Origin: Nocardioides marmoriginsengisoli
Lineage (GTDB): Bacteria > Actinomycetota > Actinomycetes > Propionibacteriales > Nocardioidaceae
Assembly (NCBI RefSeq): GCF_003725695.1
Contig: NZ_RJSE01000007.1
Coordinates: 1,068,963-1,132,962, forward strand
DNA length: 64,000 bases
Reading direction: 5' to 3'
Position numbers and translations under genes: made by a program. The first letter of the stretch is position 1, and each line of letters starts with the position of its first letter. Shown one piece after another: positions 40,363-58,706 of the stretch. The notes under the pieces are model-generated. The model saw only the letters and a list, made by a program, of their open reading frames with translations. It was not told the DNA's origin and searched no databases.

Positions 40363-41913
40363 TCAGCGCCTCACGGCGTGAGTGGATCCGGGCTTAGCTG
40401 CCGGTGCCCGCGCAGCAACCGCCCGGGCCGCCGCCACCAGGGCGGACTCCGCCTCTCGATGGGCCATCCGGCGCGCGTTTAGCCATTCTTTGTGCAGTTG
40501 CAACTCTGGGCGCAGCGTTCCGATCTCCTGCCGGACGTGCGCCGGACCGCAGCCGCCCGGCTCCCGGCGGGTAAGAACCACTTGGAGGGGGTCCAGGACG
40601 GCCGCAACGTCGACAGCCCCGTCACGCAGCAGGTTGTCTCGGCCGGTGACAACCGCGGCGGCCTCGTCGACCGACTCAGTAGACAGCCCACGCCCGGTCG
40701 CGAGGCTGGTCGCCACGGCGCGGCCGACGATCCGGTAGCTCGTCCGGTAATCCACCCCGGTGCAGCGAGTAATCTCGTCAGCCAGGTCGGTAGCGGCGGT
40801 CTGCTCGTCACGAGCACCGCGCGCCAGGGCCTCATCGTCCAACTCCAGTCGCTCCACCACCGCTCGGGCCAGCGCCAATAGCCGGGTGGCGAGCGCCAGC
40901 GAGGAGGTCACCTCGCCGTAGGTGTGAAGCCAGTTATCGGTCTGGCCGGACGGCGTGCGGCACGTTGTTAGCAAGCCGGTCAACCGACCGACCAGCGTGC
41001 TCGCCCCGGCCCTGATCACGGCCAGCGCATAGGGGTTGCGTTTCTGCGGCATCAGCACCGAGGCCCGGCAGTGTGAGGCGTGGATCCGCACCAACCCGAA
41101 GCCTGGGCTTGCGAAGATCTGCAGGTCCTCGGCTAGGCGGGAAGCGGTCAGGGTGGCCTGGACGGCCACTGTCAGCGCATCCACGAGCCCGTCGAGGTTC
41201 CACATTGTGTCCCTGGTGTTGCGGCCCACAGCTGAGAATCCGAGGAGGTCGGCCAGGCCGGTGCGGTCAAGGCCCATGCGGGTCCCGCCCACTCCGCCCG
41301 AGCCTGCGGGCGAGACATCGGCCCAAGCGTATGCTGCCCTCAGGCGCGGCAGGTGTCGCACGGCCTCCTCGGCGAAGCTGGCCAGGTAGTGGCCGAAGGT
41401 CGAGGGCTGCGCCGGCTGCAGGTAGGTGAGGTCGGACCAAACGACCTCGGCGGCTGACTCCGCCCGATCCGCCACCGCGTCCGCGAACGCCGCCACGGCG
41501 TCGCCGAGGTCGAGGAGCTGGTCGCGCAGGGACAGTCGGAAGGCGATCCGACCAGCCTCGCGGCGGGTGCGGCCGAGGTGGACCCAGCCGGCGAGGTCGC
41601 CGGCGCGCCTGACTAGCTCCTGCTCCCGGCTGTTGTAGGCGTCGCCTAGCCGGACGTCGAACGGGAAGTCCGCCACGCTCACTTCACCGAGGTCGAGCAG
41701 TTGGGTGAGCAGGGCGGGCGCCGCTGCATCGGGCAGTAATCGCTGTCGGTCCAGGGAGATCACGTGTGCCAGGTCGGCGAGGTGAAGGCCGTGGTGCAGC
41801 ATGTCGGCGTCGCCATGCTCAAGCCGGTATCCGGCTTCGACCAGTTCCGGTGCCGGCCCTTCGGAAATGCGTCCCGAGGTGCCGAGATAGCCCTCGGGGA
41901 TCGCGGGGGTCAC
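40363..41913 (-). CDS. Aspartase/fumarase-superfamily enzyme, argininosuccinate-lyase-like (CoM biosynthesis, Xcb-type)
   Basis: 516 aa from a GTG overlapping the PLP-enzyme stop (GTGA). The superfamily signature loop is SVLMPQKRNP (Met288 on); upstream are WVHLGRTRREAGRIAFRLSLRDQ and SGGVGGTRMGLDRTGLADLLG. An ArgH-like fold is clear, but no arginine genes are near. In bacterial CoM synthesis two such enzymes work after ComA: one eliminates phosphate from phosphosulfolactate, the other handles the sulfoacrylate-derived intermediate. Which of the two this is cannot be told from sequence. It is the last gene of the five-gene operon. Confidence 0.8.
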   Translation of the reverse strand: MTPAIPEGYLGTSGRISEGPAPELVEAGYRLEHGDADMLHHGLHLADLAHVISLDRQRLLPDAAAPALLTQLLDLGEVSVADFPFDVRLGDAYNSREQELVRRAGDLAGWVHLGRTRREAGRIAFRLSLRDQLLDLGDAVAAFADAVADRAESAAEVVWSDLTYLQPAQPSTFGHYLASFAEEAVRHLPRLRAAYAWADVSPAGSGGVGGTRMGLDRTGLADLLGFSAVGRNTRDTMWNLDGLVDALTVAVQATLTASRLAEDLQIFASPGFGLVRIHASHCRASVLMPQKRNPYALAVIRAGASTLVGRLTGLLTTCRTPSGQTDNWLHTYGEVTSSLALATRLLALARAVVERLELDDEALARGARDEQTAATDLADEITRCTGVDYRTSYRIVGRAVATSLATGRGLSTESVDEAAAVVTGRDNLLRDGAVDVAAVLDPLQVVLTRREPGGCGPAHVRQEIGTLRPELQLHKEWLNARRMAHREAESALVAAARAVAARAPAAKPGSTHAVRR

Positions 41914-42902
41914 AGTGCAATGTCCTTCGCGAACAGAGTCGGGGCACCTCCGGAGACAAGGAACACCACCGGCCCCTTCTCCTGGCCGGTCCTCACACTC
42001 TCGACGAGCGCAGCCATGGCTTTGGCGCCGAAGCACGGATCGAGAAGTACCCCTTCCGTCCTGGCCACGAGGGCCGCCGCGGCCTGCCCCTCATCCGAGG
42101 AGATGCCGTATCCCGGACCGATCCAGCCGTCGCGTACGTCGACCGAACCAAGGTCTGGCGCGGGCAATTGGAGCAGCCCCGAGGCAGCGGTGGCGAGGTC
42201 ATGCACCCGCTTGGCGCACTCGGCCACGGGCCGACTGACACTCACGCCTACCACCCGGTCCAGCTCACCGGTCGCGGTCGCCAGGACGACCCCCGCCTGA
42301 GTGCCACACGAACCGGTCGCCAGCCAGACGCCGGGAGCCTGCAACCCGACGCGATCCGCCTGCTCGCGGATCTCGCGGGCACCGAGGTAGAAGCCCACGC
42401 TCCCGAGCGCCACGGCACCGCCGCGGGGAAGGACAAGCGGCCGGTGAGACCGTCCCTCCAGCTCGGCGGCGACCTCCTCGATGAGGGCATCCACCGACGT
42501 CCGCGCGAGGTCGCCAGAGAACCTCACTGTGGCGCCGGTGAAACCTTGAACCAGGCGCAGGTTCCCCGTCTCGTCCGACGGACGATTGCCGTAGAAGCAC
42601 AGAACCGACGCCATCTCGCAGCGCCGCGCGCTGAGCGCCGCCAGCATCGACCAGTTGGAGTGCGGCCCGGACCCCGTCACGAGGACGTCGCACCCACGGG
42701 CGAGGCCGTCGCCCAGGATCAGCTCGAGCGCACGCACCTTTGTGCCGCCCAGGCCGATCCCAGTGAGATCGTCGCGTTTGAGCCAGATCGGGACACCCAA
42801 CTCCTCCGACAGCCGGGGGGCATCGCACAGCGGAGTTGGCAGGCACGCGAGCCGCACCCGCGCCAGCCGCTCCAGCCGCTCCTCAAGGGTGTCCGCACCC
42901 AT
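41910..42902 (-). CDS. PLP-dependent enzyme of the D-cysteine desulfhydrase / ACC deaminase family (CoM biosynthesis)
   Basis: 330 aa; GGGAGG lies 8 nt before the ATG at 42902. Fold-type II PLP enzyme: WLKRDDLTGIGLGGTKVRALE with Lys55 as Schiff-base residue, GSGPHSNWSMLAALSA, and GSCGTQAGVVLATATG for phosphate binding. Relatives cleave or form C-S bonds of cysteine-like substrates. In the bacterial CoM route a PLP enzyme supplies the thiol sulfur (thiolation step). It overlaps the upstream lyase gene by 20 nt and the downstream one by 4. Confidence 0.82.
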   Translation of the reverse strand: MGADTLEERLERLARVRLACLPTPLCDAPRLSEELGVPIWLKRDDLTGIGLGGTKVRALELILGDGLARGCDVLVTGSGPHSNWSMLAALSARRCEMASVLCFYGNRPSDETGNLRLVQGFTGATVRFSGDLARTSVDALIEEVAAELEGRSHRPLVLPRGGAVALGSVGFYLGAREIREQADRVGLQAPGVWLATGSCGTQAGVVLATATGELDRVVGVSVSRPVAECAKRVHDLATAASGLLQLPAPDLGSVDVRDGWIGPGYGISSDEGQAAAALVARTEGVLLDPCFGAKAMAALVESVRTGQEKGPVVFLVSGGAPTLFAKDIAL

Positions 42903-44313
42903 CGGCCCCGCCTCCCGTTACTCCACCGACGCTGAGCCGGCCCGTTCGCGCCAGCACGGCGTCGATGAAGCGGGGAATTGAGCCCAAGGCCCGGTCCGGG
43001 TCCAACAGCCGGTCAAACTGGGCCGCGTCCAGCGCCAGTCCCGGTGCGGAGGCCACCGCGGACTCCAAAGCCGTCCGGAGGTCGACGCCGCGCTCGCGAC
43101 CCTCGAGCGCCGCCCGGTGCACGAGCATCTGGGCCGTGTGCTTACCGATGTGGTCCGACAGGGCCCGCATCACCGGCCCGGACATCGGGTAGCCGCCTAG
43201 CCGGTCGAGGTTCGCGCGCATCCTTTCGGCGTCCACCTCGAGCCCTTCCAGCAGCCGGACCGCCGCAGCGACGCTCGCAGCTGCGTACATGCAGGCCTCG
43301 GGGAGTATCAGCCACTCGGTTTTCCACGCCCGGCCGTCCCGTTCGTGCCCGTGGACCAGTCCCTCCAGTGCCAATGACGCATCAGCACGCACCAGCCGCG
43401 CCAGCGTGTTGACAAGCTCGGAGAGCTCGGGGTTGCGTTTGTGCGGCATCGTGATGCTGCCCACGGTGCCCTCTGCGAGGGGCTCGCGCAGCTCACCGAT
43501 CTCCTCACGCTGGAGTTCGTACACCTCGTCGCCGATCTTTGCGACGGTCCCGGTCACCAGCGCTAGCAAGGACACGAACTCGGCTACGCCGTCGCGCGCG
43601 GTCAGCCACGGAAGGGCCGGTACGGCGAGCCCCAGCCGGTCGGCGAAGGCGACGGACATCGACTCGGCCTCCGCACCCCAAAACTCCATGGTGCCCAGAC
43701 CGCCGCCGATCTGCACCAACTCGCGCCGGGACCTGCCTTCCTCGAGCCGGTCGAGGTGCCGGTCGAGCTCCGCCGCCCACACGGCCGCCTTGAAACCGAA
43801 CGTGATTGGAAGCCCCGGCTGTCCGTGGCTGCGGCCACACATGACCGTGTTGCGATAGCGGCTGGCCAGCGCAGCAGCTGCTCCGCGGGCACGATCGAGA
43901 TCGCGCCGAAGCACCGTCGTCATGGTCCGCATCACCAGGGCGAACCACGTGTCGGTCAGGTCCTGAACCGTTGCGCCGTAGTACACCCACCCGCCAGCCT
44001 CCTTGGGGAGCACCTGCTGGAGCATCTGGATAAGTCCCATGGTGGAGTGACCGGTTTCCCGCGTTCGAACGCCGAGCTCGGCCATGTCGGGACGCCATGT
44101 GGTCACCGTGCGACGGATCGCCTCCGCCGCGGCCTGCGGAACCATGCCGACATCCGCCTGCGCCTCGGCGAGAGTTGCCAGAATGTCCAGCCAGGCGGAT
44201 GTCCGGCCACCGTCGGTGAACAGCGCGCGCACCTCGGGCGAGGCCCACAGGTGGCCGTACACCTCGGAGTCAGTCAGGTGCGCACTCACGGGACCTCGAT
44301 TCTCCCGACTCAC
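42883..44313 (-). CDS. Aspartase/fumarase-superfamily enzyme, adenylosuccinate-lyase/carboxymuconate-cycloisomerase-like (CoM biosynthesis)
   Basis: 476 aa. Superfamily marks: ETGHSTMGLIQMLQQVLP, CGRSHGQPGLPITFGFK (catalytic His region) and the mobile loop GTVGSITMPHKRNPELSE (Met289 on). Closest in style to PurB and 3-carboxymuconate cycloisomerase, but without purine or protocatechuate genes around. Beside comA it fits the phosphate-eliminating or adduct-forming lyase of bacterial CoM synthesis. The GTG at 44313 overlaps the previous stop (GTGA); a GTG at 44289 would shorten it by eight residues. Confidence 0.8.
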   Translation of the reverse strand: MSRENRGPVSAHLTDSEVYGHLWASPEVRALFTDGGRTSAWLDILATLAEAQADVGMVPQAAAEAIRRTVTTWRPDMAELGVRTRETGHSTMGLIQMLQQVLPKEAGGWVYYGATVQDLTDTWFALVMRTMTTVLRRDLDRARGAAAALASRYRNTVMCGRSHGQPGLPITFGFKAAVWAAELDRHLDRLEEGRSRRELVQIGGGLGTMEFWGAEAESMSVAFADRLGLAVPALPWLTARDGVAEFVSLLALVTGTVAKIGDEVYELQREEIGELREPLAEGTVGSITMPHKRNPELSELVNTLARLVRADASLALEGLVHGHERDGRAWKTEWLILPEACMYAAASVAAAVRLLEGLEVDAERMRANLDRLGGYPMSGPVMRALSDHIGKHTAQMLVHRAALEGRERGVDLRTALESAVASAPGLALDAAQFDRLLDPDRALGSIPRFIDAVLARTGRLSVGGVTGGGADGCGHP

Positions 44314-45245
44314 ACGGTCCGGGCCGCGCCGAGGTGGCCGTCTTCGGCGACGGGGCCAAGGTCATTGAGCAGACGCAGGGCGAGGCGCACCTCGTCGAGG
44401 GTCGAGCCCCAAGGAACGACCACCACATCCTTGTGACGTTCGACGCCGCGCTCCAGCATGCAGCACTTGGTGAGGACGCGACCGATCAGGTGGTCCGTGG
44501 CCCGGAGGCTCGGGCAGAAGTCCACCTGCTGTGCCTCGCTGCCGTAGAAATGGCGGTGGAACTGCTGCGAGCGAGCGCAGCCCACCAACAGCCAGTCCTG
44601 TCGTGCGGGGGGGTGGGTGTCGAGAAAGGCGACGTCACCGGGCAAGTCGACACCGGAGCCCCGGCACGGGAGCAGGTAGGCCGGGGCACGATGCTCACGA
44701 GCGAGCTCACGGAGGTCGACGGCGTCGAGCACGAGATCTATGGGCGGGAGATCTTCGTCGAAGTCGATAGCTGCGCGGGCCATCTCGTACAACTTCGCCG
44801 GCTCGGGTGGGATGACCTCCGTGACGGTGACCCGCACCGGCTCGGGACGCCATATGACGTTGACGTGCTCATAGCGACCCTGCACGGCGTAGGCGTCAAC
44901 ATTCGGGCTCAGCACTCGGTCGACTGCGTTGGCGAGGGCAGTCGCGTTACCGACGTCGATCGTCGCGTCCTCGAGCCAGGTAGTGCGGCCAGGGCCGGCG
45001 AGGACCCGCAGTTCCACCACCGGCGCGAACAAGGGCAGGGTGTCTGCGGTTCGCACCTCGACCAGGGCCAGCCGTGCGTCGTTGCGCAAGAGCAGCCACC
45101 GGGTGCGCCGGTACACCTCGCGGCCCATCAGATAGGTAGTCACCGCGTCGGTGTCGTCTAGGTCCACTGCGACGTCTTGCAGGGACAGCCCGCGGTATGG
45201 ACGCGAGATCGTGTTCGGGTCAGGCAGCGCTATCACTGGGGTCAT
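44310..45245 (-). CDS. Unknown Cys-rich protein of the CoM operon
   Basis: 311 aa, family not recognised. It sits between comA and the first lyase with a 1-nt overlap (TGATG) on one side and GTGA on the other, so it is translated as part of the CoM operon. Two halves are visible: residues 1-150 rich in beta-type segments (RLALVEVRTADTLPLFAPVVELRVLAGPG) and 160-290 holding Cys194, Cys223, Cys244, Cys261-Cys262 and His230/His232 (QQFHRHFYG). The clustered Cys/His residues suggest a metal or Fe-S site or redox thiols. A role in the decarboxylation or reduction step of CoM synthesis is possible but unproven. Confidence 0.75.
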   Translation of the reverse strand: MTPVIALPDPNTISRPYRGLSLQDVAVDLDDTDAVTTYLMGREVYRRTRWLLLRNDARLALVEVRTADTLPLFAPVVELRVLAGPGRTTWLEDATIDVGNATALANAVDRVLSPNVDAYAVQGRYEHVNVIWRPEPVRVTVTEVIPPEPAKLYEMARAAIDFDEDLPPIDLVLDAVDLRELAREHRAPAYLLPCRGSGVDLPGDVAFLDTHPPARQDWLLVGCARSQQFHRHFYGSEAQQVDFCPSLRATDHLIGRVLTKCCMLERGVERHKDVVVVPWGSTLDEVRLALRLLNDLGPVAEDGHLGAARTV

Positions 45246-46018
45246 CAGCGCGCAGCGATTGGCGACCCGACGAGCGCCGTGTCGGCGCGTAGACCCAGCC
45301 GGAGTGTCTCCAGGGCGACGAGGTCGTCGGGGGCGATGTTGCCGAGATTGACCGAAGGTCCCAGCGACCGGATGAACCAGGTCTGCTGTGTCTTCCGGGG
45401 AGCCTCGAAGATCATGCGGTCGACGGGTACTCGCGAGGTCAGTTTGGCGATCAGGTCTTCGCGCACGTGGCCGTCGGCACCGTAGAGACCCACCGTTCCG
45501 CTCTCGCGCCCCTCCGCGATCACCCAGGCTGCGCCCGACTCAAGGTCGCGCTCCATCTCTGCCGCCCAGGCGGTGGCAAGTACTGGGGGGCGATCGTCCT
45601 TACATCCGACCTCGGCGAGAACCGTGAAGTCGGCGCTAAGGGTGCGGATCAGCTGGCTCTTTCGGTCCGCGTCCAGGGCACACAGGCCGTTGGAAACCTC
45701 AATCATGGAGACGCCGATTTCGAGGGCCCAGGCGCGCAGCTCATCGACCCGGTTTTGGACAGCCGCGATCTCCAGGAGAGTGCCGCCCAAACAGACTGGG
45801 ACGCCCGCGCGTGCGTAAGCTTGCACGCGGCGAGGTGCCGAGGAGTCGATGTAGGCGATCCCCCAGCCGATCTTGGCGATGTCGACAAGGTCCGCGTGAC
45901 TTTCGAGCAGGTCGCGAGTGAACGCAGCACTAAGCCCTGTGTCAAGCATGTGCGTTAGTCCCGCGTCACGAGGCTTCGCTGAGCGACCGGGAACTGCCAG
46001 GAACGAGGGTGGATGCAT
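45245..46018 (-). CDS. comA: Phosphosulfolactate synthase
   Basis: 257 aa; ATG 46018 has AGGAGG 7 nt upstream. It aligns along its length with ComA/XcbB: KPRDAGLTHMLDTGLS, VDIAKIGWGIAYID, VPVCLGGTLLEIAAVQ, IEVSNGLCALDADRK, TVLAEVGCKDD, DLESGAAWVIAEGRESG, IFEAPRKTQQTWFI and GPSVNLGNIAPDDLVALETLRLGLRADT. The enzyme adds sulfite to phosphoenolpyruvate to give (R)-2-phospho-3-sulfolactate, the first step of coenzyme M synthesis. It heads a five-gene operon whose other members match the aspartase/fumarase and PLP enzymes of the bacterial route. Divergent to the reductase gene at 46189. Confidence 0.92.
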   Translation of the reverse strand: MHPPSFLAVPGRSAKPRDAGLTHMLDTGLSAAFTRDLLESHADLVDIAKIGWGIAYIDSSAPRRVQAYARAGVPVCLGGTLLEIAAVQNRVDELRAWALEIGVSMIEVSNGLCALDADRKSQLIRTLSADFTVLAEVGCKDDRPPVLATAWAAEMERDLESGAAWVIAEGRESGTVGLYGADGHVREDLIAKLTSRVPVDRMIFEAPRKTQQTWFIRSLGPSVNLGNIAPDDLVALETLRLGLRADTALVGSPIAAR

Positions 46019-46046
46019 CCCATCGCCTCCTCTGTATCTCGACTTG

Positions 46047-46056
46047 TCACGCGTGA
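46047..46056. promoter_or_regulatory. Palindrome in the comA/reductase divergent region
   Basis: TCACGCGTGA is a perfect 10-bp palindrome 29 nt upstream of the comA start and midway to the divergent reductase gene. The 170-bp gap must hold both promoters. TAGGTT (46177-46182) ends 6 nt before the GTG at 46189, which would make the reductase mRNA leaderless. Operator function is a guess. Confidence 0.35.
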
Positions 46057-46188
46057 TTGACGCTGACTCAACTGGAACGGTAGGCCCGGTCGCCCCTGTC
46101 CGACCCCGGCACGCGAGGGCGAAGAATCTCCAGTTCTTCGTCTTCGTGGGATATGGGTCGATCAGTGCCACCTTTCTAGGTTGGCCGC

Positions 46189-47571
46189 GTGTCCAACCAA
46201 CTTCGGCGCAACCTGACGGAGCGTCTCCTCGTGATCGGCGGAGGTGCGGCCGGGATGTCGGCCGCCTCGGCAGCACGCAGGACCGACCCGGACCTTCCGA
46301 TAACCGTCCTCGAGTCAGGTCCCTACTCCTCCTATGGTGTCTGCGGCATTCCCTACTATCTGGCCGGCGTGGTCGCGAACGCCGCCTCCTTGATTGCGCA
46401 TCCGCCGAGCGAGTTCATTGAACGCCGCCGCATCGACCTGCGCCATGGAGTCGAGGCCGTGGCGCTCGACCTCGACCAGCGCACCCTGCAAACATCGGAC
46501 GGCGAGACACTGGACTTCTCGACGCTGGTCTACGCCGCAGGCGCTGAACCGATCGTGCCGCCGACCGCCCGGACGCGAGACCCGAGAGTCGTGACGGTCC
46601 GCAGCCTCGCTGACGCGATGGTGCTGCGCGCCCGGCTCCCCGAGGTGGCCCGAGCCGTGGTCGTCGGCGCGGGCTACGTCGGGCTCGAGGTCGCGGACAG
46701 TTTGGCCCAGCGGGGCGTGAGTACGACTGTCGTGGACCGGCTGCCGCGCGTGATGCCGACCCTCGACGAGGTCATTGCGGAGCGCGTCGAGGCCGAGGTG
46801 CGCAAGCACGTCGAGCTAGACCTCGGTTCCGGCCTCCGAGCGCTCCAGCTGCGCACCGACGCGGTGGTCGTCGAGCTCGACGACCACGAGTTGGCTGCAG
46901 ACCTTGTCGTGCTCGCGCTCGGCGTGCGACCCCGTACCGGCCTGCTCGCCGACGCCGGCCTGGCAACAACGCAGGAGGGTGCGTTGCTGGTCAACGCACG
47001 AATGCAGACCTCGCACGCCGGTGTCCTCGCCGCCGGCGACAGCGTCGCGCACCACCACCGGGTCCTGGACGCCCCGGCATATGTGCCGCTCGGACCTGCC
47101 GCGAACAAGACCGGCCGGGTCGCCGGAACCGTAGCAGCCGGCGGGGACGCTACCTTCGCCGGTGTGGTGGGGACGGCCGTCGTTAAGGTCTTCGACCTCG
47201 AAGTCGCACACACCGGGCTGTCGCTCGAGCAGGCCATGGCCGCAGGCCTAGACGCCGTAGCGACCGATGTGACCGCTATGTCGCGCGCAAAGTACTACCC
47301 GGACTCGGCAGCGCTGCATGTGCGGCTCGTCCACGAGCGCAGTAGACGTGTACTCGGGGCCCAGATCGTCGGAACCGACGGCGCGGCCAAGCGGATCGAT
47401 GTCGTCGCAGCGGCCTTGCACTTCGGCTCGTTCATCGATGACCTGGCCGGCTTCGATCTTGCCTATGCGCCGCCCTTCTCCCCCGTCTACGACCCGATCA
47501 CCCAGGTAGCTCAGGCTGCCCAGCGCGAGGCGAACCGCCCGTCAGCAGTCCTCGGGCGCGTCGGACGATGA
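46189..47571 (+). CDS. CoA-disulfide-reductase-like flavoprotein (candidate CoM-disulfide/thiol reductase)
   Basis: 460 aa. Pyridine nucleotide-disulfide reductase of the single-Cys CoADR/NADH-oxidase branch: VIGGGAAGMSAASAARR, then YSSYGVCGIPYYLAG with Cys52 as the redox Cys, second fold VVVGAGYVGLEVADSLAQRG, FAD motif GVLAAGDSVAHHH, and dimerisation domain KVFDLEVAHTGLSLEQA. The CxxxxC pair of 2-ketopropyl-CoM carboxylase is absent, so that function is unlikely. Transcribed away from comA, it is a good candidate for reducing a CoM mixed disulfide or for the reductive last step of synthesis. GTG start; no ribosome site. Confidence 0.82.
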   Translation: MSNQLRRNLTERLLVIGGGAAGMSAASAARRTDPDLPITVLESGPYSSYGVCGIPYYLAGVVANAASLIAHPPSEFIERRRIDLRHGVEAVALDLDQRTLQTSDGETLDFSTLVYAAGAEPIVPPTARTRDPRVVTVRSLADAMVLRARLPEVARAVVVGAGYVGLEVADSLAQRGVSTTVVDRLPRVMPTLDEVIAERVEAEVRKHVELDLGSGLRALQLRTDAVVVELDDHELAADLVVLALGVRPRTGLLADAGLATTQEGALLVNARMQTSHAGVLAAGDSVAHHHRVLDAPAYVPLGPAANKTGRVAGTVAAGGDATFAGVVGTAVVKVFDLEVAHTGLSLEQAMAAGLDAVATDVTAMSRAKYYPDSAALHVRLVHERSRRVLGAQIVGTDGAAKRIDVVAAALHFGSFIDDLAGFDLAYAPPFSPVYDPITQVAQAAQREANRPSAVLGRVGR

Positions 47572-47693
47572 GCAGAGTGGCCGCCGTCACCGGTGCCGGC
47601 AACAGCATCGGACCCGCAGCGCTCCAGTCCCTGGAGGAGGAGCACCTCCAGGTCGGGGCACTCGACTTGGACTGCGGGGCCATTGCGTGGTGA
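47568..47693 (+). CDS. 41-residue SDR-like mini-ORF coupled on both sides
   Basis: ATG 47568 overlaps the reductase stop (ATGA), and the TGA at 47691-47693 overlaps the GTG of the next gene (GTGA). The 41 codons encode MSRVAAVTGAGNSIGPAALQ and on to GALDLDCGAIAW: the first beta-alpha-beta of an SDR including TGAGxxIG, then a stop. It could be a remnant of a second SDR gene, kept because it relays ribosomes to the complete SDR downstream, or a small binding peptide. Too short for usual gene finders. Confidence 0.5.
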   Translation: MSRVAAVTGAGNSIGPAALQSLEEEHLQVGALDLDCGAIAW

Positions 47694-48463
47694 CCGGCAG
47701 GCTGAGCGGAAAAGTGGCCCTGATCACAGGTGGTGGGGCAGGGATCGGCCGCGCCACAGCCCGCCTCTTTGCGGCCGAGGGAGCGGCGGTCGGTGTTCTC
47801 GACGTCGACCGAGTTGCTGCGGCCCAGGTCGCGGACGAGTTGGCGGCGACGGGGGGGCGGGCCATCGCTGTTGCGGCGAACGTCTCGGTCGATGCTGAGG
47901 TCCGCGAAGCCGTTCGAGCGCTTGTGGAGTCGCTGGGTCCGGTGAACGTGCTCTACAACAACGCGGGCGTCGCCAGTACCGGCGCAGTGGATGTCGCCGA
48001 CGAGGACGACTGGGACCGCTGTATGGCGATCAACGCCAAGGGAACCTTCCTGACTTCCCGCGCCGTGTTGCCGAGCATGCTGGCGGCCGGAGGTGGCTCG
48101 ATCATCAACCAGGCCTCGGTGGCTGCGATCGTGGGTGTTGCCGACTTCGCGGCGTACTGCGCAGCGAAAGGCGCGGTACTGGCCTTGACCAGGTCCATGT
48201 CGGTGGACCTGGCGCCACGGGGCATCCGCGTCAATGTCATCGCGCCGGGCACCATCTACACCCCGATGATGGAGCCGCTGCTGAAGGCGCGCGGAGGCGG
48301 AGACGTGGAGCGCGGGCTTGCGACAACACTGGAGAAGTACCCGATCGGCAGGCTCGCCCAGCCCTACGACATCGCGGCCGCCGCCTTGTACCTCGCAGGC
48401 AGCGAGTCGGCCTTCGTCACCGGCTCGGTCCTGACCGTCGACGGCGGAATGACCAGCCAATGA
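47690..48463 (+). CDS. SDR family oxidoreductase (hydroxyalkyl-CoM dehydrogenase candidate)
   Basis: 257 aa from a GTG (GTGA overlap). Complete SDR: TGGGAGIGRA, acidic VLDVDR after strand 2 (NAD preference), NNAGVAS, Ser in INQASVAAIVG, YCAAKG, and end TGSVLTVDGG. The 2-hydroxypropyl-CoM dehydrogenases of alkene degraders are SDRs of this size; they recognise the CoM sulfonate by basic residues near the C-terminus, and this protein has Arg/Lys in LLKARGGGDVERG. Being between CoM synthesis and CoA-transferase genes supports oxidation of a CoM adduct; this is inference. Confidence 0.85.
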   Translation: MTGRLSGKVALITGGGAGIGRATARLFAAEGAAVGVLDVDRVAAAQVADELAATGGRAIAVAANVSVDAEVREAVRALVESLGPVNVLYNNAGVASTGAVDVADEDDWDRCMAINAKGTFLTSRAVLPSMLAAGGGSIINQASVAAIVGVADFAAYCAAKGAVLALTRSMSVDLAPRGIRVNVIAPGTIYTPMMEPLLKARGGGDVERGLATTLEKYPIGRLAQPYDIAAAALYLAGSESAFVTGSVLTVDGGMTSQ

Positions 48464-48479
48464 AGGAAGAAGGAGCACG

Positions 48480-49391
48480 ATGTTCGTCGATCACGACAAA
48501 GTAGGCGATCTACCGTCGGCCGCTGCCCGGGTGTCCGACGGGGACATGGTGGCGCTGGGCGGCGGCCTGTCGGCTCGGCTGCCGATGGCCCTCGTCCGCG
48601 AGCTGGTTCGGCTCGGCCGGCAGGACCTGCACCTCGTGGGCTCAGCCCACGGCATGGACGTGGACCTTCTCGTCGCCGCCGGGGCGGTCGCGGTCTGCGA
48701 GGAGAGCTACGTGGGCTTCGAGCAGGATCTTGGGCTCGCCCCTTCCTACCGGCGCGCAGCGGAGGCAGGCCAGCTGGAGATCCGCGAGACCTGCTGTGTA
48801 ACGATCCTGACCCAACTGCGCGCCGCGCAGATGGGTCTCCCTTTTCTCCCAGTTCGCGGAGTGAAGGGGACCGACATCCGTCGAATGCACCCGGACTACG
48901 CCGAGATAGTCTGCCCCTTCACCGGCGAGACTCTCGTGGCCGTGCCGCCGCTTGAGCCAGACGTTGCCCTGATCCACGCCCCGATGGGCGACAGGGTTGG
49001 GAACCTGCACCTGGAGCAGCCCTACGTGCTCGACGAACACTTCGCCCGTGCCGCTCGACAGGTCGTGGCCACCGTCGACCGGTTGGCCACGACCGAGGAG
49101 GTCGTCGCGACCGGCGTCACCATCCCAGGACACCGCGTGTCAGTTGTCGTCGAGGTTCCGTTCGGGGCTCACCCGACCTCCTGCTACCCCGGGTACGCCT
49201 ACGACCGGCAACACCTGGCGGCATACGTCGCGGCGGCAGGCCAGGCCCAGACGGCCCAGGATTACCTGGCGGAGTGGGTAACGCGACCCGGCGGCGAAGA
49301 TGCCTACCGTGCGGCGCTGGACCAGGACCGACTGGACCGGCTGATGTCTTGGTCGGACACAATCGAGGAGTGGAAGGAGCTGTTCGTATGA
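48480..49391 (+). CDS. CoA-transferase subunit A (glutaconate/3-oxoacid type)
   Basis: 303 aa; GAAGGAG precedes the ATG. Family I CoA-transferase alpha chain: VSDGDMVALGGGLSARLPMALVRELVR, LHLVGSAHGMDVDLLVAAGAV, YVGFEQDLGLAPSYRRAAEAG and PLEPDVALIHAPMGDRVGNLHLEQPYVLDEHFARAA. It forms the active enzyme with the next gene (ATGA overlap), moving CoA between carboxylates such as an acyl-CoA product and an acid of the CoM pathway. Confidence 0.88.
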   Translation: MFVDHDKVGDLPSAAARVSDGDMVALGGGLSARLPMALVRELVRLGRQDLHLVGSAHGMDVDLLVAAGAVAVCEESYVGFEQDLGLAPSYRRAAEAGQLEIRETCCVTILTQLRAAQMGLPFLPVRGVKGTDIRRMHPDYAEIVCPFTGETLVAVPPLEPDVALIHAPMGDRVGNLHLEQPYVLDEHFARAARQVVATVDRLATTEEVVATGVTIPGHRVSVVVEVPFGAHPTSCYPGYAYDRQHLAAYVAAAGQAQTAQDYLAEWVTRPGGEDAYRAALDQDRLDRLMSWSDTIEEWKELFV

Positions 49392-50209
49392 ACTGGAACC
49401 TGCCTGAGTGGTTCGTGGTCACGTTGGCCCGGACGATCTCCGACCGCGAGGTCGTGTTCCACGGCTTCGGGAGCCCTTGCGCGCAGGTGGCCATGCACGT
49501 TGCACGCCGAACGCACGCGCCGAACATGCTGCTTATCGAAGGGGCCATGTACGCCGTCAACCCGGCCCCACCCTTCGTGCCGCCGACCAGTAACGACCAG
49601 GCTCTCAAGTATGGGGCGGCCTACAGCATGCGCTTCGAAGAGTTCTTCGACGCCGCTTGCCGGGGCGAGGTCGACCGAATGTTTCTTTCCGGCGGCCAGA
49701 TCGACCCCTATGGCAACACCAACGTGACCGCTATCGGGCCGATGAACAGGCCGAAGGTGAAGTTGGGCGGAGGCGGAGGCGGCTGCAACATCTCGGCAAC
49801 CATCCGGCACCTCACGCTCTGGACGACCCGGCACCGCTCTGGCCGGACGCTGGTGCAAGAGTGCGACTTCATCACCGACGTCGGCCATCGCACGCCAGCT
49901 GGCAGCAGGGTCGACCTTGGCTACACAGGCGGGGGACCGGCGCATCTGGTCACCGAACTGGGGGTGTTCGACTACGGCGACGTTGGACGCGCCCGCCTGG
50001 TTCAGATCTTCCCGGACGTGACCCTCGATGAAGTGGAGCGCTCGACCGGTTTCGAGCTCCAGGTTTCCCCGGACCTGGGCACGGTGCCTGAGCCGACCGA
50101 GGAGGAGCTTGAAATCGTGCGCGCCGTTGACCCGCTCGCCGTACATGCCAGTGAGTTCGACCCTTCCGAGCTCGACCGCACCTTCACGTCCGAGCCTGCG
50201 ATTGCCTGA
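49388..50209 (+). CDS. CoA-transferase subunit B
   Basis: 273 aa. Beta chain features: LARTISDREVVFHGFGSPCAQVAMHVARRTHAPNM, then FLSGGQIDPYGNTNVTAIG and a Gly-rich GGGGGGCNISATI loop. These match glutaconate-CoA-transferase-like beta subunits. The canonical catalytic Glu region (IEG before AMYAVNP) is plausible. Start fixed by ATGA overlap with subunit A. The substrate is not evident. Confidence 0.87.
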   Translation: MNWNLPEWFVVTLARTISDREVVFHGFGSPCAQVAMHVARRTHAPNMLLIEGAMYAVNPAPPFVPPTSNDQALKYGAAYSMRFEEFFDAACRGEVDRMFLSGGQIDPYGNTNVTAIGPMNRPKVKLGGGGGGCNISATIRHLTLWTTRHRSGRTLVQECDFITDVGHRTPAGSRVDLGYTGGGPAHLVTELGVFDYGDVGRARLVQIFPDVTLDEVERSTGFELQVSPDLGTVPEPTEEELEIVRAVDPLAVHASEFDPSELDRTFTSEPAIA

Positions 50210-50216
50210 GAATGAG

Positions 50217-52373
50217 ATGACACCTAGTAGTGACCAGCAGGTGTCTGAGCCAAGATCCCTGCGGGCGCTCTTCGAGCCCCGTCGCGTGGCCGTGGTCGGC
50301 GCTTCCGCACGCGAGGGGAGCGTCGGCAACTTGGTATGGAGGAACCTCTCGTCATTCGAGGGCGACGTGGTGCCGGTCAACATCCGCGGCGGTGAGCTCG
50401 AGGGGCACCACGTTCACCGTTCACTACGTGAGGTGACGGGGCCGCTCGACCTGGCAGTGGTGACCGTTCCCGCAGAAGCCACTCCAGGTGTCATTGCCGA
50501 CGCCGCGGCAGCCGGAGTCGGTGCCTGCATCGTGCTAAGTGGCGGCTTCGCCGAAGCGGGTGAGCACGGACGCGTCCTGCAGGAGCAGCTGGTCACGCTC
50601 GCCCGCGGGGCCGGAATGCTGCTGCTCGGACCCAACAGTCTGGGATTGCAGGTGGTTGGTACCTCCCTGAACGCGTCATTGACCCGCGAATCGATCGCCG
50701 TCGCAGGGGGTGTCAGCTTGGTCACTCAGTCGGGCTCGTACGCAATGTCCCTGCCCGTGCTGTCCGCGGACGATGGGTTCGGATTCGCCATCGGGTGTTC
50801 GATCGGCAACAGGTCCGACATCGACGAGGCTGAGGTACTGGGTCACCTGGCAGCACGATCCGACACACGGGTGGTGTGCCTTCTGCTTGAGTCAGTAGGC
50901 GCCGGGGAGGCGCTCCTGGAGCAGGTTCGGGCGCTTGTGCCTGACAAGCCGGTGGTGGTGACGCTTCTGGGCCAATCCCCCTCCGGGGCCCGGGCAGCCG
51001 CCTCACACTCCGCGGCGCTCGCCACCAGCAGGCGGGTTTGGGAAGACGTGCTCGTCTCGGCCGGAGCCATCGTGACCCGAACCGGACTGGAGATGCTCGA
51101 CGTCGCGGCGTTGCTTGATGCAGGACCCGTCCCAGGCGGCAACCGCGTGGCCGTCGTGACCAACTCTGGTGGCATCGGCACGGAGCTGACGGACCTACTC
51201 CAGGCTGAGGGACTGGAGGTGCCCGAACTCTCGGACACACTGCAGCAGCGGCTGGCCCGGGATCTCCCTTCATATGCAAGTCCCCGCAATCCCGTGGACA
51301 TCACACCGGTCTGGTCACGCTTCGCCGACCTCTACCCGTCGCTTGTCGAGGACCTAGCCCGGTCCGGCGAGGTAGATGTAGTGGTGGCCGTCTTGTTACA
51401 GCGCGCGGCCGACCATGCGGTCGCAGAGCGGCTCGTCGATACTGTTCAAACGCTGCGCCGTGACGGTGTTCCGGTCACCGTGTGTGTGTGCTGGGTCGCC
51501 GCGCAGTCGCAGCGGCCAGTTGCGGCCATGCTTCGACGCGCCGACGTGCCAGTCCTCGAGTGGCCAGAGCGAACCGCCCGGGCTATCGGACATGCGGTCC
51601 GCTTTGGTCGGCTCCGGTCCGCGCCAGCTGTCCTGCACCCCACCTCCGCCGAGTCCGGTGCGGACACGCCTCCGGGATTGGGATCCGACCCTGCTGTCGA
51701 CCTGGCGTTCGCCGCCGATCAGGGGATCCCCCTTGTGCCGGGCACCCTGTGCCGCGACGAGAAGGCGGCGGTCGAGGCCGCAGCGGATCTCGGCTACCCC
51801 GTTGTGGTCAAGTTGCAGCATCATTCGATCACACACAAGAGCGATGTCGGCGGTGTGGTCCCCGGTCTGCGTGACGCGAACGAGGTGCGGGCCGCGGCCC
51901 GGCGACTTCTCGGGTCCTACCAGGACGCGCAGGTACTGATCCAACCAATGGTCGCCGGAGTCGAGCTTTTGGTTGGCGGGTTGCGAGACCCGACCTTCGG
52001 TCCGGTTGTCGTCGTCGGCCTGGGTGGCGTGTTGGTGGAGATCCTCGATGACGTACGTTTCGCAGCCGCGCCATTGTCGGAGCCGGAGGCCCGCGCCCTG
52101 CTACGAAGCTTGGATGGCGCCGCAATCCTCGATGGGGTGCGCGGCTCGCCCGGCGTCGACGTCGCTGCCGTCGCCCAGCTCGTGTGCCGCATGGGTGACT
52201 TGATGGTTCGGCATCGTGATCTGGACGCCTTGGAGCTGAACCCGGTGCTGGCCACCCCGGCAGGCTGTGTGTGCGTCGACGTCCGCGTGTCCACAGCCAC
52301 TCCCGAGCGGCCCAACAACCGTCGACCATTTAGTCCTCCGAGGACGGAGCCGGGGAAGGTTCGGTGCCCCTAA
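50217..52373 (+). CDS. NDP-forming acyl-CoA synthetase (acetate-CoA ligase, fused alpha-beta)
   Basis: 718 aa. N-terminal CoA-binding and ligase domains (FEPRRVAVVGASAREGSVGNLVWRNL, LLGPNSLGLQVVGTSLNAS, VTQSGSYAM) with the phospho-His region ARAAASHSAALATSRRVWEDV; C-terminal ATP-grasp domain (GYPVVVKLQHHSITHKSDVGGVVPGL, GPVVVVGLGGVLVEILDDVRFAAAPLSEPEA). It interconverts acyl-CoA + NDP + Pi with acid + CoA + NTP, so it could either activate acetate or similar acids or harvest energy from an acyl-CoA. Seven nt separate it from the transferase. Confidence 0.88.
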   Translation: MTPSSDQQVSEPRSLRALFEPRRVAVVGASAREGSVGNLVWRNLSSFEGDVVPVNIRGGELEGHHVHRSLREVTGPLDLAVVTVPAEATPGVIADAAAAGVGACIVLSGGFAEAGEHGRVLQEQLVTLARGAGMLLLGPNSLGLQVVGTSLNASLTRESIAVAGGVSLVTQSGSYAMSLPVLSADDGFGFAIGCSIGNRSDIDEAEVLGHLAARSDTRVVCLLLESVGAGEALLEQVRALVPDKPVVVTLLGQSPSGARAAASHSAALATSRRVWEDVLVSAGAIVTRTGLEMLDVAALLDAGPVPGGNRVAVVTNSGGIGTELTDLLQAEGLEVPELSDTLQQRLARDLPSYASPRNPVDITPVWSRFADLYPSLVEDLARSGEVDVVVAVLLQRAADHAVAERLVDTVQTLRRDGVPVTVCVCWVAAQSQRPVAAMLRRADVPVLEWPERTARAIGHAVRFGRLRSAPAVLHPTSAESGADTPPGLGSDPAVDLAFAADQGIPLVPGTLCRDEKAAVEAAADLGYPVVVKLQHHSITHKSDVGGVVPGLRDANEVRAAARRLLGSYQDAQVLIQPMVAGVELLVGGLRDPTFGPVVVVGLGGVLVEILDDVRFAAAPLSEPEARALLRSLDGAAILDGVRGSPGVDVAAVAQLVCRMGDLMVRHRDLDALELNPVLATPAGCVCVDVRVSTATPERPNNRRPFSPPRTEPGKVRCP

Positions 52374-52440
52374 GTTCGCAGCGCGTCGAGACTCCGACGC
52401 CACGGCCGATACCGGCCGTGCCCCGAGGAAGAGGTGCTGC

Positions 52441-53070
52441 ATGACCACGTCCGAACTGGATCTCAACCACCCATTAGCCGTCGAACCCGCACCGGTCTGG
52501 GCCGGGGACCCCTCAGTCCTGGGACTGCCTTCCTTCATCGTCGGTTCCACCGCACTTGGGCTGGTGCTGGTCGGGTACGTCCCCCCAGCAGCCGCCGGCG
52601 CCTCGTTGGCGATCTTGATCGCCGCTACCGGGCTCGGGCTGACCATCGCGGCCATCTGGGCGGCCGCAATCGGCCAGAGCGTTGTCGGTGCCGTATTCGG
52701 AATCTTCGCCGGCTTCTGGCTCAGCTACTCAATGCTCGTCCTAGGCCTCACCCACAACTGGTTCGGCATCGCGGCCGAGGATGCAGTCAGGACCCAGGAA
52801 CTGTTCCTCATCAGCTGGCTGGCGATGATCATCATGGTGACCCTCGTGACCTTCCGGCTCCCCCTGGCTTTCACCCTGCTCTTCGTACTCGTGGACCTCG
52901 CGCTCCTGCTCGTCCTGCTCGCCACCGCACAGGGATCCATCGGGCTACAGAAGACCGCCGGCTACGTGGTGTTCGCGTTTGTCCTCGTCGGCTTCTACCT
53001 CTTCTTGAGTGCCTCCTCGGCCGCCACCGGCGGCAAGCCGCTGGCGCTGGGGCGACCGGTGCTCCGCTGA
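52441..53070 (+). CDS. Acetate/succinate-type transporter (GPR1/FUN34/SatP-like)
   Basis: 209 aa with six hydrophobic segments spaced as in the AceTr family; GDPSVLGLPSF near the N-terminus corresponds to the family motif NPxPLGL in altered form. GGAAGAGG precedes the ATG. Last gene of the plus-strand unit starting at 46189. Import or release of acetate or a similar short acid fits with the NDP-forming synthetase before it. Confidence 0.75.
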   Translation: MTTSELDLNHPLAVEPAPVWAGDPSVLGLPSFIVGSTALGLVLVGYVPPAAAGASLAILIAATGLGLTIAAIWAAAIGQSVVGAVFGIFAGFWLSYSMLVLGLTHNWFGIAAEDAVRTQELFLISWLAMIIMVTLVTFRLPLAFTLLFVLVDLALLLVLLATAQGSIGLQKTAGYVVFAFVLVGFYLFLSASSAATGGKPLALGRPVLR

Positions 53071-55046: not shown

Positions 55047-55453
55047 GGGCGAGCGGCCTGGGGAAACGGACCGGGAGTAATCCCGACACCGCGCCCCAGG
55101 CCGACTCAACCGATCGCTCGGGTTCACGCGGGGTGAAGCCGGGAGGTTGATCGTCCGTGTCGGCGGAGTCTGAACGATCGCCGGACAAGGCTGTCCGGGT
55201 GGGCAGGGCGGGTCACCGGCCGCGTCGTCGTCAGCTGTGTGAACCTCGAGCTCTCGTCGAAGATCCGCCGCCGGCGCGCAGCCTGGACCGTCCAGTCGAA
55301 GGGGTCCTGTCCCCTCGCTTCCCCGGAGATCTCCACTTCTGTATCGCGCTGACAAGCGGGCCGTGCGACATGTCCTCCGGGGTGCGTGCGCTGATGATGC
55401 TTCGTCCCAACGGGCCGGTTCGGTGTGTGCGCCCGGGAGTGCACGATGGCGCC
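55047..55453. other. Leader region of the aldehyde dehydrogenase gene, no gene visible
   Basis: About 400 bases. A frame open upstream of the dehydrogenase start lacks protein-like composition. No clear -35/-10 pair; the promoter must be here or within the hairpin border. The PucR-type regulator encoded downstream is the likely activator. Confidence 0.45.
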
Positions 55454-56881
55454 ATGACCACCACCATCGCCACTAGGCCATCCGTACAGGACGACGCGGA
55501 CGAGGTCGAGCGCGTCGTTACCGCCGCTCGTGCCGCCGCCGAGCTGATCGCGGGCTGGGACCAGGATCGGGTTGACGGCCTCGTGACGGCGGTTGCCTGG
55601 GCCGTCGTGCGCCCGGACCACGCGCAGGCGCTGGCCCGCCTGGCTGTGGACGAGGGCGGCTTCGGAACGTATGAGGACAAACTGATGAAGATCCAGCGGC
55701 GCGTCACCGGGCTGCTGGCCGACATGCGCGACACGCGGACCGTCGGCGTGGTCGAGGAGCTCCCGGAACGGGGCTTGGTCAAGATTGCAAAACCCGTAGG
55801 TGTGGTGGCGGCGCTGATTCCCACCACAGGTCCGGATGCGACGCCCCCGATGAAGGCGATGATGGCACTGAAGGGCCGCAACGCGATCGTCGTGGCTCCA
55901 CATCCCCGGACCCGCAAGACCAGCGAGTTAGCTGTCGAGCTAATGCGGGCCGCCTGCGCCCAGGTTGGCGCACCCGAGGATCTGGTGCAGAGCTTGCCCG
56001 CTCCCTCGATGGGCAAGACGACTGCTCTCATGCAGCAGGCCGACCTCATCGTCGCCACGGGCGGTGCAGGCATGGTCAAGGCTGCCTACAGCTCCGGCAC
56101 CCCGGCGTACGGGGTCGGCGTCGGAAACTCGGTACACGTCGTCGACCAAACCGCAGATCTCGACGATGCCGCGGAGATGATTGTGACCGCGAAGACCTTC
56201 GACCTGGCGACAAGTTGCTTGGCCGACAACTCGCTCGTGATTGAGAGCACGGTGTACCACGCACTCATCGACCGCCTCCAGGCTCGACACGGCCACGTCT
56301 GCAGCCCTGACGAGAAAGCTGCTCTGCAGCATGTGATGTGGCCTGACGGGGGAGAGATCCCCGCACTCGAGGTGATCGCCAAGCCGGCGGCGACGATCGC
56401 TGCGCTCGCCGGCTTCGAGGTGCCTCCGGAGACTGCGTTTCTAGTGGTCGAGGAGGACGGCACGGGCCCGGAGCACCCGTTCTCCGGGGAGAAACTCTCC
56501 GTCGTCCTCGCGGCGTACAGCTACACCGGCGGCATCGATCAGGCGGTCGCGCTGGTCAACGCGATCACGACCTACCAGGGCCTTGGACACACCTGCGGCA
56601 TCCACACGTCCCGCGACGAGCACGTCGAGGCGCTCGCAGTAGGCACCCAAACGGCGCGCGTGATGGTGAACCAGAGCCTCAACGAAGGCGCGGGCAGTCC
56701 GCGCAACGGGCTGCCGTTCACGCTGAGCCTGAGCTGTGGAACCTGGGGCGGGAACGTTACCACCGAAAACGTGAATGCGCGTCACTTCGTCAACCTGACC
56801 TGGGTCTCCCGCCCAATTCCGCCTCGCGTGATCGACGAACAGGACCTGTTTGCAGCTCACTGGGAGCGGAACGGACAATAA
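55454..56881 (+). CDS. CoA-acylating aldehyde dehydrogenase (sulfoacetaldehyde/propionaldehyde dehydrogenase type)
   Basis: 475 aa from the ATG at 55454 (a GTG at 55439 is an alternative). ALDH superfamily, acylating branch: [64 protein letters not shown], and Cys255 in [15 protein letters not shown], without the general-base Glu of hydrolytic ALDHs. It oxidises an aldehyde to the acyl-CoA with NAD(P). Relatives act on acetaldehyde, propionaldehyde and sulfoacetaldehyde. Beside a CoM transferase it could oxidise a 2-oxoethyl-CoM-like aldehyde to a CoA ester; inference. Confidence 0.83.
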
Positions 56882-56972: not shown

Positions 56973-58706
56973 ATGGACCGAACAGACGCGATCGGTAAGA
57001 CGGGTCAAGAAGCCGACAGTGGCGGCAGCGTAGCTAACCCGTCTCCAGTCGCGATGCGCGAGCAGCTGACGAACATGCGTGGGCTGCTGGTGTTGTCCAT
57101 CCTGATGACGGAGAGCCCCGACGAGGACCAGATCCTCAACCTGGCGGCGTCGTCCGCCGCGTCGTTGGGATCGTGGCGGGTGCAGGCGTTCGCCTTCGTC
57201 GAGGAGGGCACGCTCTGGACTGCCGCCCGCGGGGCTGTGCATCGGCAACGGATCCCCGACGACCTCGCGGTGGCCCTCTCCCGGCTTGGAGAAACCGGGG
57301 GTCGACTGTCGTGGCCTGTGGCTCCTTGGACATACGCCTCTCCCATGCGGACCCCGGGCGGGATGTTCGGGCACCTCATTGCCTCCGCTGACCACCCGCC
57401 GAGTCAGGAGGATGGGTTCCTGATCAAGGTGGTCGCCCAACAGACCGCCGTGGCCGTGTCGAACGCCCGGCTTCGGGCGCTCGAACGCCGGCAGACCGTC
57501 GAGCTCGAGTCCGCCAACGCGGCTTTGGAGCGGACCGTGGCGGATTTGCGGCGCGGCGCCGAGATTCACGGCCGGATGACGGCAGCTGTCGCGTCGGGCG
57601 AGGGGTCGAGCGGCATCGCCCAGATCCTGCACGAATTGTCCGGGCGACCCGTCGTGATCGAGGACCGCTATGGAAACCTGCGCGCCTGGGCCGGGCCGGA
57701 GGAACCTACGCCGTACCCGAAGTTGCCAGCGCGAGAGCAGGAGGCTTTGGTGCGCAAGTTGGGGTCCCAGCCGAGATCTCTCCGTCACGGAGGACGAGCC
57801 GTTGCGTTGGCCTCTCCGCGACCAGGCGTCGTCGGACTGGTTGCAATCGTCGACCCAGACGACTCATGTGACGCGGCGGACATCATGGCGCTCGAGCTCA
57901 GCGCCACGGCGCTCGCCGTTGAGCTCGCGCGGGTGCGAGGCCTTGCGGACGCCGAGATCCGGCTGCGTCGCGATCTGCTGCACGATCTGCTTGCGGGGAT
58001 CGATGACGAGAGCGCCTATGCCCGCGCAGACGCGCTCGGCTACGACCTTGGGACCGCGCACCGTGTGCTGCTGGTTGACTGTCCCGGCTCGGCGGGGAGC
58101 GAAGACGACGTACTGCACGCCGTGCGTCGGGCGATGCGCGAGCTCGGGATCACCGGCTTGCTCGGCACTTTGACCGGTTCGGTTGTGATCGTCACCAGCG
58201 CTTCGGGCGGCTGGGAGCCGCTGCGCGAGGTCATCGTCCGAGAGCGAGGCGCTGGCCAATGCAACCTGAGCTCCGGCAGTGCCCGCAGGCGCCCTTCCGA
58301 GATGCCAGAGTCCTTGCGCGAGGCGCAACTGGCCCTGCGCCTGCATCAGGTCTCGGGAGGTGCGCCGCGCGCTACCGAGTACGACGACCTCGGGGTCTTC
58401 CGCATGTTCGCCGCACTTCCCGAATTGGGGCACGTGGACGCCTTCGTCCGCACTTGGCTCGGGGCGCTGATCGACTATGACGCGGGCAAGGACGCCGATC
58501 TGCTGCACACGCTCACCGTCTATCTTGCCGAAGGCGGCCACTACACCGAGACGGCGGCGGCGCTGACAGTGCATCGCAGCACCCTCAAGTACAGGTTGCA
58601 GCGGATTCGGGAACTGACCGGGCTCGACCTGAACGACCCCGAAACCAACTTCAACCTACAACTCGCAACGCGCGCTTCGCTGGTCCTGCAGGCTGTTCAC
58701 CACTGA
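56973..58706 (+). CDS. PucR/CdaR-type transcriptional activator with GAF domain
   Basis: 577 aa. N-terminal GAF-like sensor (about residues 30-165), a short coiled coil (ALERRQTVELESANAALERTVADLRR), a second sensory and CdaR GGDEF-like region, and the C-terminal helix-turn-helix ALTVHRSTLKYRLQRIRELTGLDLNDPETNFNLQLATRASL (about residues 530-570, HTH_30). Such activators sense small organics and turn on adjacent catabolic operons. It stands between the aldehyde dehydrogenase and the E1/CoM-transferase genes on the same strand and probably controls both. Confidence 0.87.
   Translation: MDRTDAIGKTGQEADSGGSVANPSPVAMREQLTNMRGLLVLSILMTESPDEDQILNLAASSAASLGSWRVQAFAFVEEGTLWTAARGAVHRQRIPDDLAVALSRLGETGGRLSWPVAPWTYASPMRTPGGMFGHLIASADHPPSQEDGFLIKVVAQQTAVAVSNARLRALERRQTVELESANAALERTVADLRRGAEIHGRMTAAVASGEGSSGIAQILHELSGRPVVIEDRYGNLRAWAGPEEPTPYPKLPAREQEALVRKLGSQPRSLRHGGRAVALASPRPGVVGLVAIVDPDDSCDAADIMALELSATALAVELARVRGLADAEIRLRRDLLHDLLAGIDDESAYARADALGYDLGTAHRVLLVDCPGSAGSEDDVLHAVRRAMRELGITGLLGTLTGSVVIVTSASGGWEPLREVIVRERGAGQCNLSSGSARRRPSEMPESLREAQLALRLHQVSGGAPRATEYDDLGVFRMFAALPELGHVDAFVRTWLGALIDYDAGKDADLLHTLTVYLAEGGHYTETAAALTVHRSTLKYRLQRIRELTGLDLNDPETNFNLQLATRASLVLQAVHH

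Follow-up and report, generated by a model that had tools for sequence, protein, structure and literature searches.

Whether five genes of Nocardioides marmoriginsengisoli make coenzyme M (CoM), and which reaction this cofactor would serve, is the question raised by a stretch of 64,000 nucleotides (contig NZ_RJSE01000007.1, positions 1,068,963 to 1,132,962; hereafter the window). No organic cofactor is smaller than CoM, and bacteria use it for few purposes. The list of open reading frames (ORFs) places five consecutive minus-strand genes at 40363-46018, in the order comA/xcbB, xcbA (DUF7714), xcbD, xcbE and xcbC. With a probability of roughly 0.85, we conclude that these genes provide for CoM synthesis, and that divergent and downstream genes provide for the breakdown, with CoM as cofactor, of an epoxide or a comparable electrophile. 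The gene set, the family memberships, the altered lyase sites, the synteny with the ethene (etn) pathway and the clade of a CoM transferase relative (CoMT2) are read from sequence; the chemical steps we infer.

The probable CoM biosynthesis genes

The assignment of the five-gene set to the full bacterial CoM route of Xanthobacter autotrophicus Py2 is well supported by sequence comparison. The initial annotation had proposed a Py2-type enzyme set, and a search against the Xcb proteins of Py2 matched all five in full-length alignments, with identities between 34 and 44.5% (XcbB1 34%, XcbC1 38%, XcbD1 44.5%, XcbE1 43%, and XcbA1, see below); the neighbouring genes are those of a CoM-using pathway. 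The identities to Nocardioides JS614, an ethene and vinyl chloride assimilator (PMC8727900), are 55% for ComA, 58% for XcbA, 55.7% for XcbD, 52% for XcbE and 55% for XcbC. Across the five proteins the E-values for Pfam and NCBIfam families range from 1e-66 to 1e-196, far beyond chance (DUF7714/XcbA 1.1e-110, XcbD 7.9e-196, XcbE 3.9e-86, XcbC 1.4e-120). CoM-specific families are the best NCBIfam match for XcbA, XcbC, XcbD and XcbE, and XcbA and XcbD exceed the respective cut-offs (Table 1).

The five genes are as tightly coupled as first described, with junctions that overlap or touch. Base 45245 is common to the stop codon of comA and the ATG of xcbA, the xcbA stop (44310-44312) directly adjoins a GTG at 44313, xcbD and xcbE share 20 bases, and, with the GTG at 41913 as the xcbC start, xcbE and xcbC share 4; started at 42036, XcbC would be over-long. 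Although the comA reading frame stays open as far as 46276, homology puts the start at the ATG at 46018, where it had been placed originally; the PF02679 match covers the full domain. A tRNA-Cys (91 nt, ARAGORN) at 41383-41473 on the plus strand, antisense inside xcbC, was judged a likely false positive.

Enzymes of the aspartase/fumarase superfamily have their catalytic serine in the loop GSSxMPxKxNP. The MPHKRNP and MPQKRNP loops that drew attention to the two lyases are both present, as is the GGTK lysine motif of the pyridoxal phosphate (PLP) enzyme. The position of the catalytic serine is occupied by Val286 in XcbC (ASVLMPQKRNP) and by Ile287 in XcbD (GSITMPHKRNP). Homologues of XcbC have Val, Ile or Lys at this position, and GSITMPHK is common to XcbD1 of Py2, the JS614 protein and all related XcbD proteins. 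Elsewhere in this genome, on other contigs, two further lyases keep GSSIMP, and one of them is ArgH-like (GSSIMPQKKNP).

The second gene, initially described as coding for an unknown Cys-rich protein, is indeed present; its product is a member of the XcbA family with 41% identity to Xaut_5051 (XcbA1) of Py2, and the corresponding gene is named xcbF1 in PMC8727900. In an alignment of 27 homologues, C194, C244, C261, K260, H127, H230 and D209 are invariant, and the Cys positions are also kept in Py2 and Methylocystis. An AlphaFold2 model was obtained with pLDDT 91.5 and pTM 0.87. A metal or cluster site in this protein is possible.

In the bacterial CoM route, ComA/XcbB adds sulfite to phosphoenolpyruvate, and XcbC eliminates phosphate. 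The window proteins would act likewise, ComA/XcbB on sulfite and phosphoenolpyruvate and XcbC in a phosphate elimination giving sulfoacrylate. XcbD, XcbE (with sulfur from cysteine) and XcbA would then complete the conversion to CoM, probably by three steps whose order and substrates are given here tentatively. The pathway paper in PNAS of 2022 is said to list decarboxylation, thiolation and reduction. The NCBIfam name of XcbD is '3-sulfopropionylcysteine synthase'; our names of intermediates follow NCBIfam names, PMC8727900 and PMC11507031.

The adjoining catabolic genes

The strongest context evidence is the series of catabolic genes at 46189-62667 (Table 1), which are missing from the initial annotation. 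The CoADR, SDR, CoA transferase, ligase, ALDH and MEDS/PucR genes of the etn pathway are present, with 43-75% identity to JS614. The block of CoADR, SDR, CoA transferase and ligase has been interpreted as turning hydroxyethyl-CoM into acetyl-CoA and setting CoM free (PMC8727900, PMC11507031, PMC6440738). A divergent arrangement of the ComA operon and CoADR-SDR-CtfAB-ligase genes is also found in JS614, M. rhodesiae JS60, M. chubuense NBB4, a further genome of the same genus (G008) and freshwater actinobacterial metagenome-assembled genomes (MAGs), and in a tree of XcbD the window falls inside the clade of this etn block. No sigma-70 consensus and no terminator-like site was found in the intergenic region 46019-46188.

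Table 1. Genes and control region of the CoM cluster, in window coordinates. CoADR, CoA-disulfide-reductase-like flavoprotein; SDR, short-chain dehydrogenase/reductase; ALDH, aldehyde dehydrogenase; TPP, thiamine pyrophosphate; percentages are identities.
Feature	Position	Strand	Evidence
comA/xcbB, phosphosulfolactate synthase (sulfite + phosphoenolpyruvate)	45245..46018	-	PF02679 E=6.6e-77 over full domain; TIGR03849 224.5 bits, cut-off 280 (JS614 204.9)
xcbA (DUF7714), CoM-pathway protein	44310..45245	-	NF052538 369.5 bits, cut-off 150
xcbD, aspartase/fumarase-superfamily enzyme, loop GSITMPHKRNP	42883..44313	-	NF052536 651 bits, cut-off 600
xcbE, PLP enzyme, D-cysteine desulfhydrase/1-aminocyclopropane-1-carboxylate (ACC) deaminase fold, lysine K55 in GGTK	41910..42902	-	NF052537 289 bits, best of all families, cut-off 450 (JS614 313)
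xcbC, aspartase/fumarase-superfamily phosphate-eliminating enzyme, loop ASVLMPQKRNP	40363..41913	-	NF052535 403 bits, cut-off 575 (JS614 332)
Divergent intergenic region between comA and CoADR gene, 170 bp, presumed shared control region	46019..46188	.	sequence
CoADR, single active-site Cys (YGVCGIPYY)	46189..47571	+	TIGR03385 367 bits; 51% to JS614 enzyme, same place
SDR, likely hydroxyalkyl-CoM dehydrogenase	47687..48463	+	62% to JS614 etn-cluster SDR; 37-45% to Py2 epoxide-carboxylase-cluster SDRs
CoA transferase subunit A	48480..49391	+	PF01144; 69% to JS614
CoA transferase subunit B	49388..50209	+	PF01144; 69% to JS614
Acyl-CoA ligase, ADP-forming type	50217..52373	+	PF13607, PF13549; 48% to JS614 acetate--CoA ligase family protein
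GPR1/FUN34/YaaH (acetate/succinate) transporter, in the place of JS614 etnE	52267..53070	+	PF01184 66.7 bits; JS614 gene order
Acylating ALDH, SauS-like	55157..56881	+	NF047625 528 bits, cut-off 600; 75% to JS614 ALDH adjoining xcbC
PucR/CdaR-type regulator	56973..58706	+	PF13556; 45% to JS614 cluster regulator
TPP-dependent E1 alpha (PdhA), pyruvate dehydrogenase/acetoin-dehydrogenase type	58708..59847	+	TIGR03182 320 bits, cut-off 394
TPP-dependent E1 beta (PdhB)	59814..60857	+	NF006667 341 bits, cut-off 321; 68% to same-position gene of G479 (L164)
CoMT2, divergent relative of epoxyalkane:CoM transferase	60870..61910	+	PF01717 (Meth_synt_2); Zn ligands H222, C224, C318
MEDS-domain sensor, small-hydrocarbon-type regulator	61999..62667	+	PF14417 E=2.7e-39; 43% to JS614 MEDS protein

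CoMT2 (346 aa) keeps the Zn-binding His-X-Cys (HVC at 222-224) and the further Cys of the methionine-synthase fold. In a maximum-likelihood tree, CoMT2 and the epoxyalkane:CoM transferases (EaCoMTs) are set apart from methionine-synthase-like proteins (support 100/97); the CoMT2 clade (100/98) lies outside the clade of tested EaCoMTs (100/99) and is sister to it. The other members of the CoMT2 clade come mostly from genomes that also carry the CoM operon. In genomes G373 and G141, CoMT2 lies beside flavoproteins similar to 2-ketopropyl-CoM carboxylase (2-KPCC) and a protein of the acyl-CoA-synthetase type, and genome G026 has the same setting with an interrupted copy. Among the loci with transferases of the CoMT2 type (L123-L126, L164-L166), three (L124, L125, L166) have 2-KPCC-like flavoproteins and acyl-CoA synthetases alongside.

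The window gene is preceded by an E1 pair, the alpha chain of which has 2-oxoacid dehydrogenase E1 alpha chains as relatives in the PDB. In a MAG of another genus of the same family (G479, locus L164) the order PdhA-PdhB-CoMT2 is kept, with identities of 66%, 68% and 79%, and the unit ends against a canonical etnE, which itself follows an acyl-CoA ligase gene. This conserved order beside a canonical etnE shows PdhA-PdhB-CoMT2 to be a genuine unit with a link to the etn pathway. The window copy has no etnE and is found on its own. We tentatively suggest, with the odds against it, that the three genes form an undescribed CoM-dependent catabolic module, in which CoMT2 represents a second class of CoM transferase for an electrophile other than a small epoxide made by a di-iron monooxygenase, and in which the adduct or a derived ketone is split by the TPP-dependent E1, replacing or supplementing CoADR/2-KPCC.

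In the proposed catabolic route, the Zn-dependent CoMT2 would open an epoxide or similar electrophile with CoM, presumably acting as its thiol, and the SDR would oxidise the resulting hydroxyalkyl-CoM. The acylating ALDH, the CoA transferase and the acyl-CoA ligase may lead on to a CoA ester, the CoADR-like flavoprotein would split the thioether and return CoM, and the E1 pair might act on the CoMT2 adduct or its ketone. The PucR and MEDS proteins would sense the substrate.

Counter-evidence and rival explanations

Several results count against CoM synthesis coupled to epoxide catabolism. ComA, XcbC and XcbE score below their NCBIfam cut-offs (Table 1), and so do their counterparts in JS614. 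In a control scan of the Py2 and JS614 proteins with the same NCBIfam library, Py2 passes every cut-off and JS614 misses the same three by a similar margin; the shortfall therefore most likely reflects actinobacterial divergence and not another function. The XcbA model has no convincing solved relative (best Foldseek TM ~0.2; highest VIA Z 6.5, spanning 105 residues). CoMT2 is only ~29-30% identical to the tested transferases EtnE of JS614 and XecA of Py2, and XcbA was not found in two carriers of CoMT2-type genes, the G479 MAG (84% complete) and G026. The host genome, rated 100% complete, has no match to PF02332, to which the di-iron oxygenases EtnA and EtnC belong; of the 32 genomes or records covered by the same search, 19 contain the family, the JS614 plasmid among them. 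A canonical etnE is likewise missing from the host genome, where a search with CoMT2 as query finds only CoMT2, yet detects canonical EtnE elsewhere. Because di-iron alkene monooxygenase and canonical etnE are both absent, the host lacks part of the etn pathway described for ethene oxidisers, and we reject the reading as a plain ethene oxidiser.

Other oxygenases were considered as the source of an epoxide. Copper membrane monooxygenase (PF02461) and styrene monooxygenase (PF17885) gave no match in searches run without a positive control. Cytochrome P450 genes are many in the host genome (26 matched stretches); two of them (L007:15864-17084 and L008:105-1232) lie past the CoMT2 gene at distances of ~14 and 18 kb, accompanied by a ferredoxin-reductase-like and an alcohol-dehydrogenase-like gene. 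These P450s are a possible epoxide source, but nothing ties them to the cluster. With an unusual transferase and without a discernible alkene monooxygenase, the natural substrate of the host's CoM pathway appears either not to be the textbook one or to be still hidden.

Among the rival explanations, the one that survives best regards the cluster as the decaying remnant of an ethene/vinyl chloride island that lost etnABCD and etnE, so that CoM is perhaps made and no full pathway is left. We consider this unlikely. The genome-wide absence of these genes speaks for it, and the place of etnE in JS614 is taken by a transporter gene and a gene-poor stretch. Downstream of the CoM genes lies a piece of an IS1380-family transposase (37921-37995, minus strand, 76% over 25 aa); together with the G+C content, ~0.70 in the left third of the window and 0.62-0.69 thereafter, it suggests an acquired region of mobile origin. 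All listed genes are intact with their codon bias kept, however, no remnants of etnA-E were found within the 64-kb window, and the conservation of PdhA-PdhB-CoMT2 at 66-79% identity in another genus argues for selection.

It is very improbable that the operon makes a related sulfonate instead of CoM, such as a different sulfoacrylate-cysteine adduct or a product of the sulfoacetaldehyde kind. The XcbE family includes cysteate sulfo-lyase and D-cysteine desulfhydrase, the window protein scores under the XcbE cut-off, and the XcbA step is not assigned, all of which would leave room for such a product. The five genes are the same as in Py2, however, known ethene oxidisers have the identical divergent linkage with CoM-using genes, and XcbD and XcbA exceed CoM-specific cut-offs. 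Finally, that XcbC and XcbD are housekeeping ArgH and PurB/PcaB enzymes, linked by chance to a D-cysteine desulfhydrase, as generic names in the automatic annotation and a score of 252 bits of XcbC with the argH family might suggest, can be dismissed: both lyases score below the argH and purB cut-offs (279.5 for argH), the window proteins and every relative have another residue in place of the catalytic serine, another contig encodes a separate lyase whose loop is intact, and the operon is strictly conserved in ~30 genomes, so that the initial annotation's own counter-hypothesis of true ArgH/PurB enzymes was not borne out.

Related systems and implications

CoM synthesis with CoM-dependent catabolism, the reading we retain, has known counterparts. 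The same five-gene operon, in the same order, has been published for JS614 (plasmid pNOCA01) and for Mycolicibacterium strains JS60, NBB4 and L1 (PMC8727900), and the XcbA family is found in 15 of 395 genomes drawn from the host's class. The initial annotation was right in identifying a bacterial CoM route, and its remark that CoM is rare in bacteria is tempered by these occurrences. The operon is not new in kind; its setting, a CoM-using side with CoMT2 and without etnABCD/etnE, is new. The etn cluster of JS614 shares the divergent CoADR-SDR-CoA-transferase-ligase block and the types of ALDH, PucR and MEDS genes, whereas it has etnE and etnABCD where the window has CoMT2 with PdhA-PdhB, and it is located on a catabolic plasmid, in contrast to the 1.68-Mb contig, probably chromosomal, of the window. 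Py2 shares all five CoM genes (34-45% identity, different gene order) and uses CoM for epoxide opening; unlike in Py2, no orthologue of 2-KPCC (XecC) is found in the window. Methanotrophs such as Methylohalobius crimeensis likewise combine CoM and epoxide genes and a MEDS regulator without a dedicated alkene monooxygenase, the epoxide being ascribed to co-oxidation by particulate methane monooxygenase (PMC11507031). The window's host differs in having no match to a methane monooxygenase family, in a search run without positive control.

A second clade of ComA-XcbA-XcbD-XcbE-XcbC operons (loci L034-L056) occurs in Pseudonocardia, Asanoa, Nonomuraea, Actinophytocola, Leekyejoonella, Nanopelagicales and other actinobacterial MAGs. 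No EaCoMT, 2-KPCC or CoA-transferase block was found within their fetched flanks. Of the 19 loci whose sequence extends far enough past XcbC, 17 have AllG (PF06545) after it, usually with AllH (PF11392), and most have a conserved flavin oxidoreductase and a regulator. On plasmid pSS37A-Re-1 of Methylocystis iwaonis (L137), the CoM operon adjoins a Nit1 (MSMEG_0565-0572 / Sll0783) cluster, OsmC and a DUF1116 gene, and not etnE. Within the window, a separate catabolic-looking block at 28995-38916 comprises a branched-chain-type ABC transporter, a substrate-binding protein, an AMP-binding acyl-CoA synthetase, a Zn-alcohol dehydrogenase and an SDR; the protein at 39207-39821 has an IstB-like look that could not be confirmed.

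The operon adds sequence diversity for the XcbA step, with 27 homologues that share invariant Cys, His and Lys residues, and the AllG-linked operons of the second clade may be the more novel lead. A CoM maker that has epoxide-processing enzymes and lacks the usual monooxygenase and transferase points to an undescribed CoM substrate, for which CoMT2 and its three-gene unit are defined targets.

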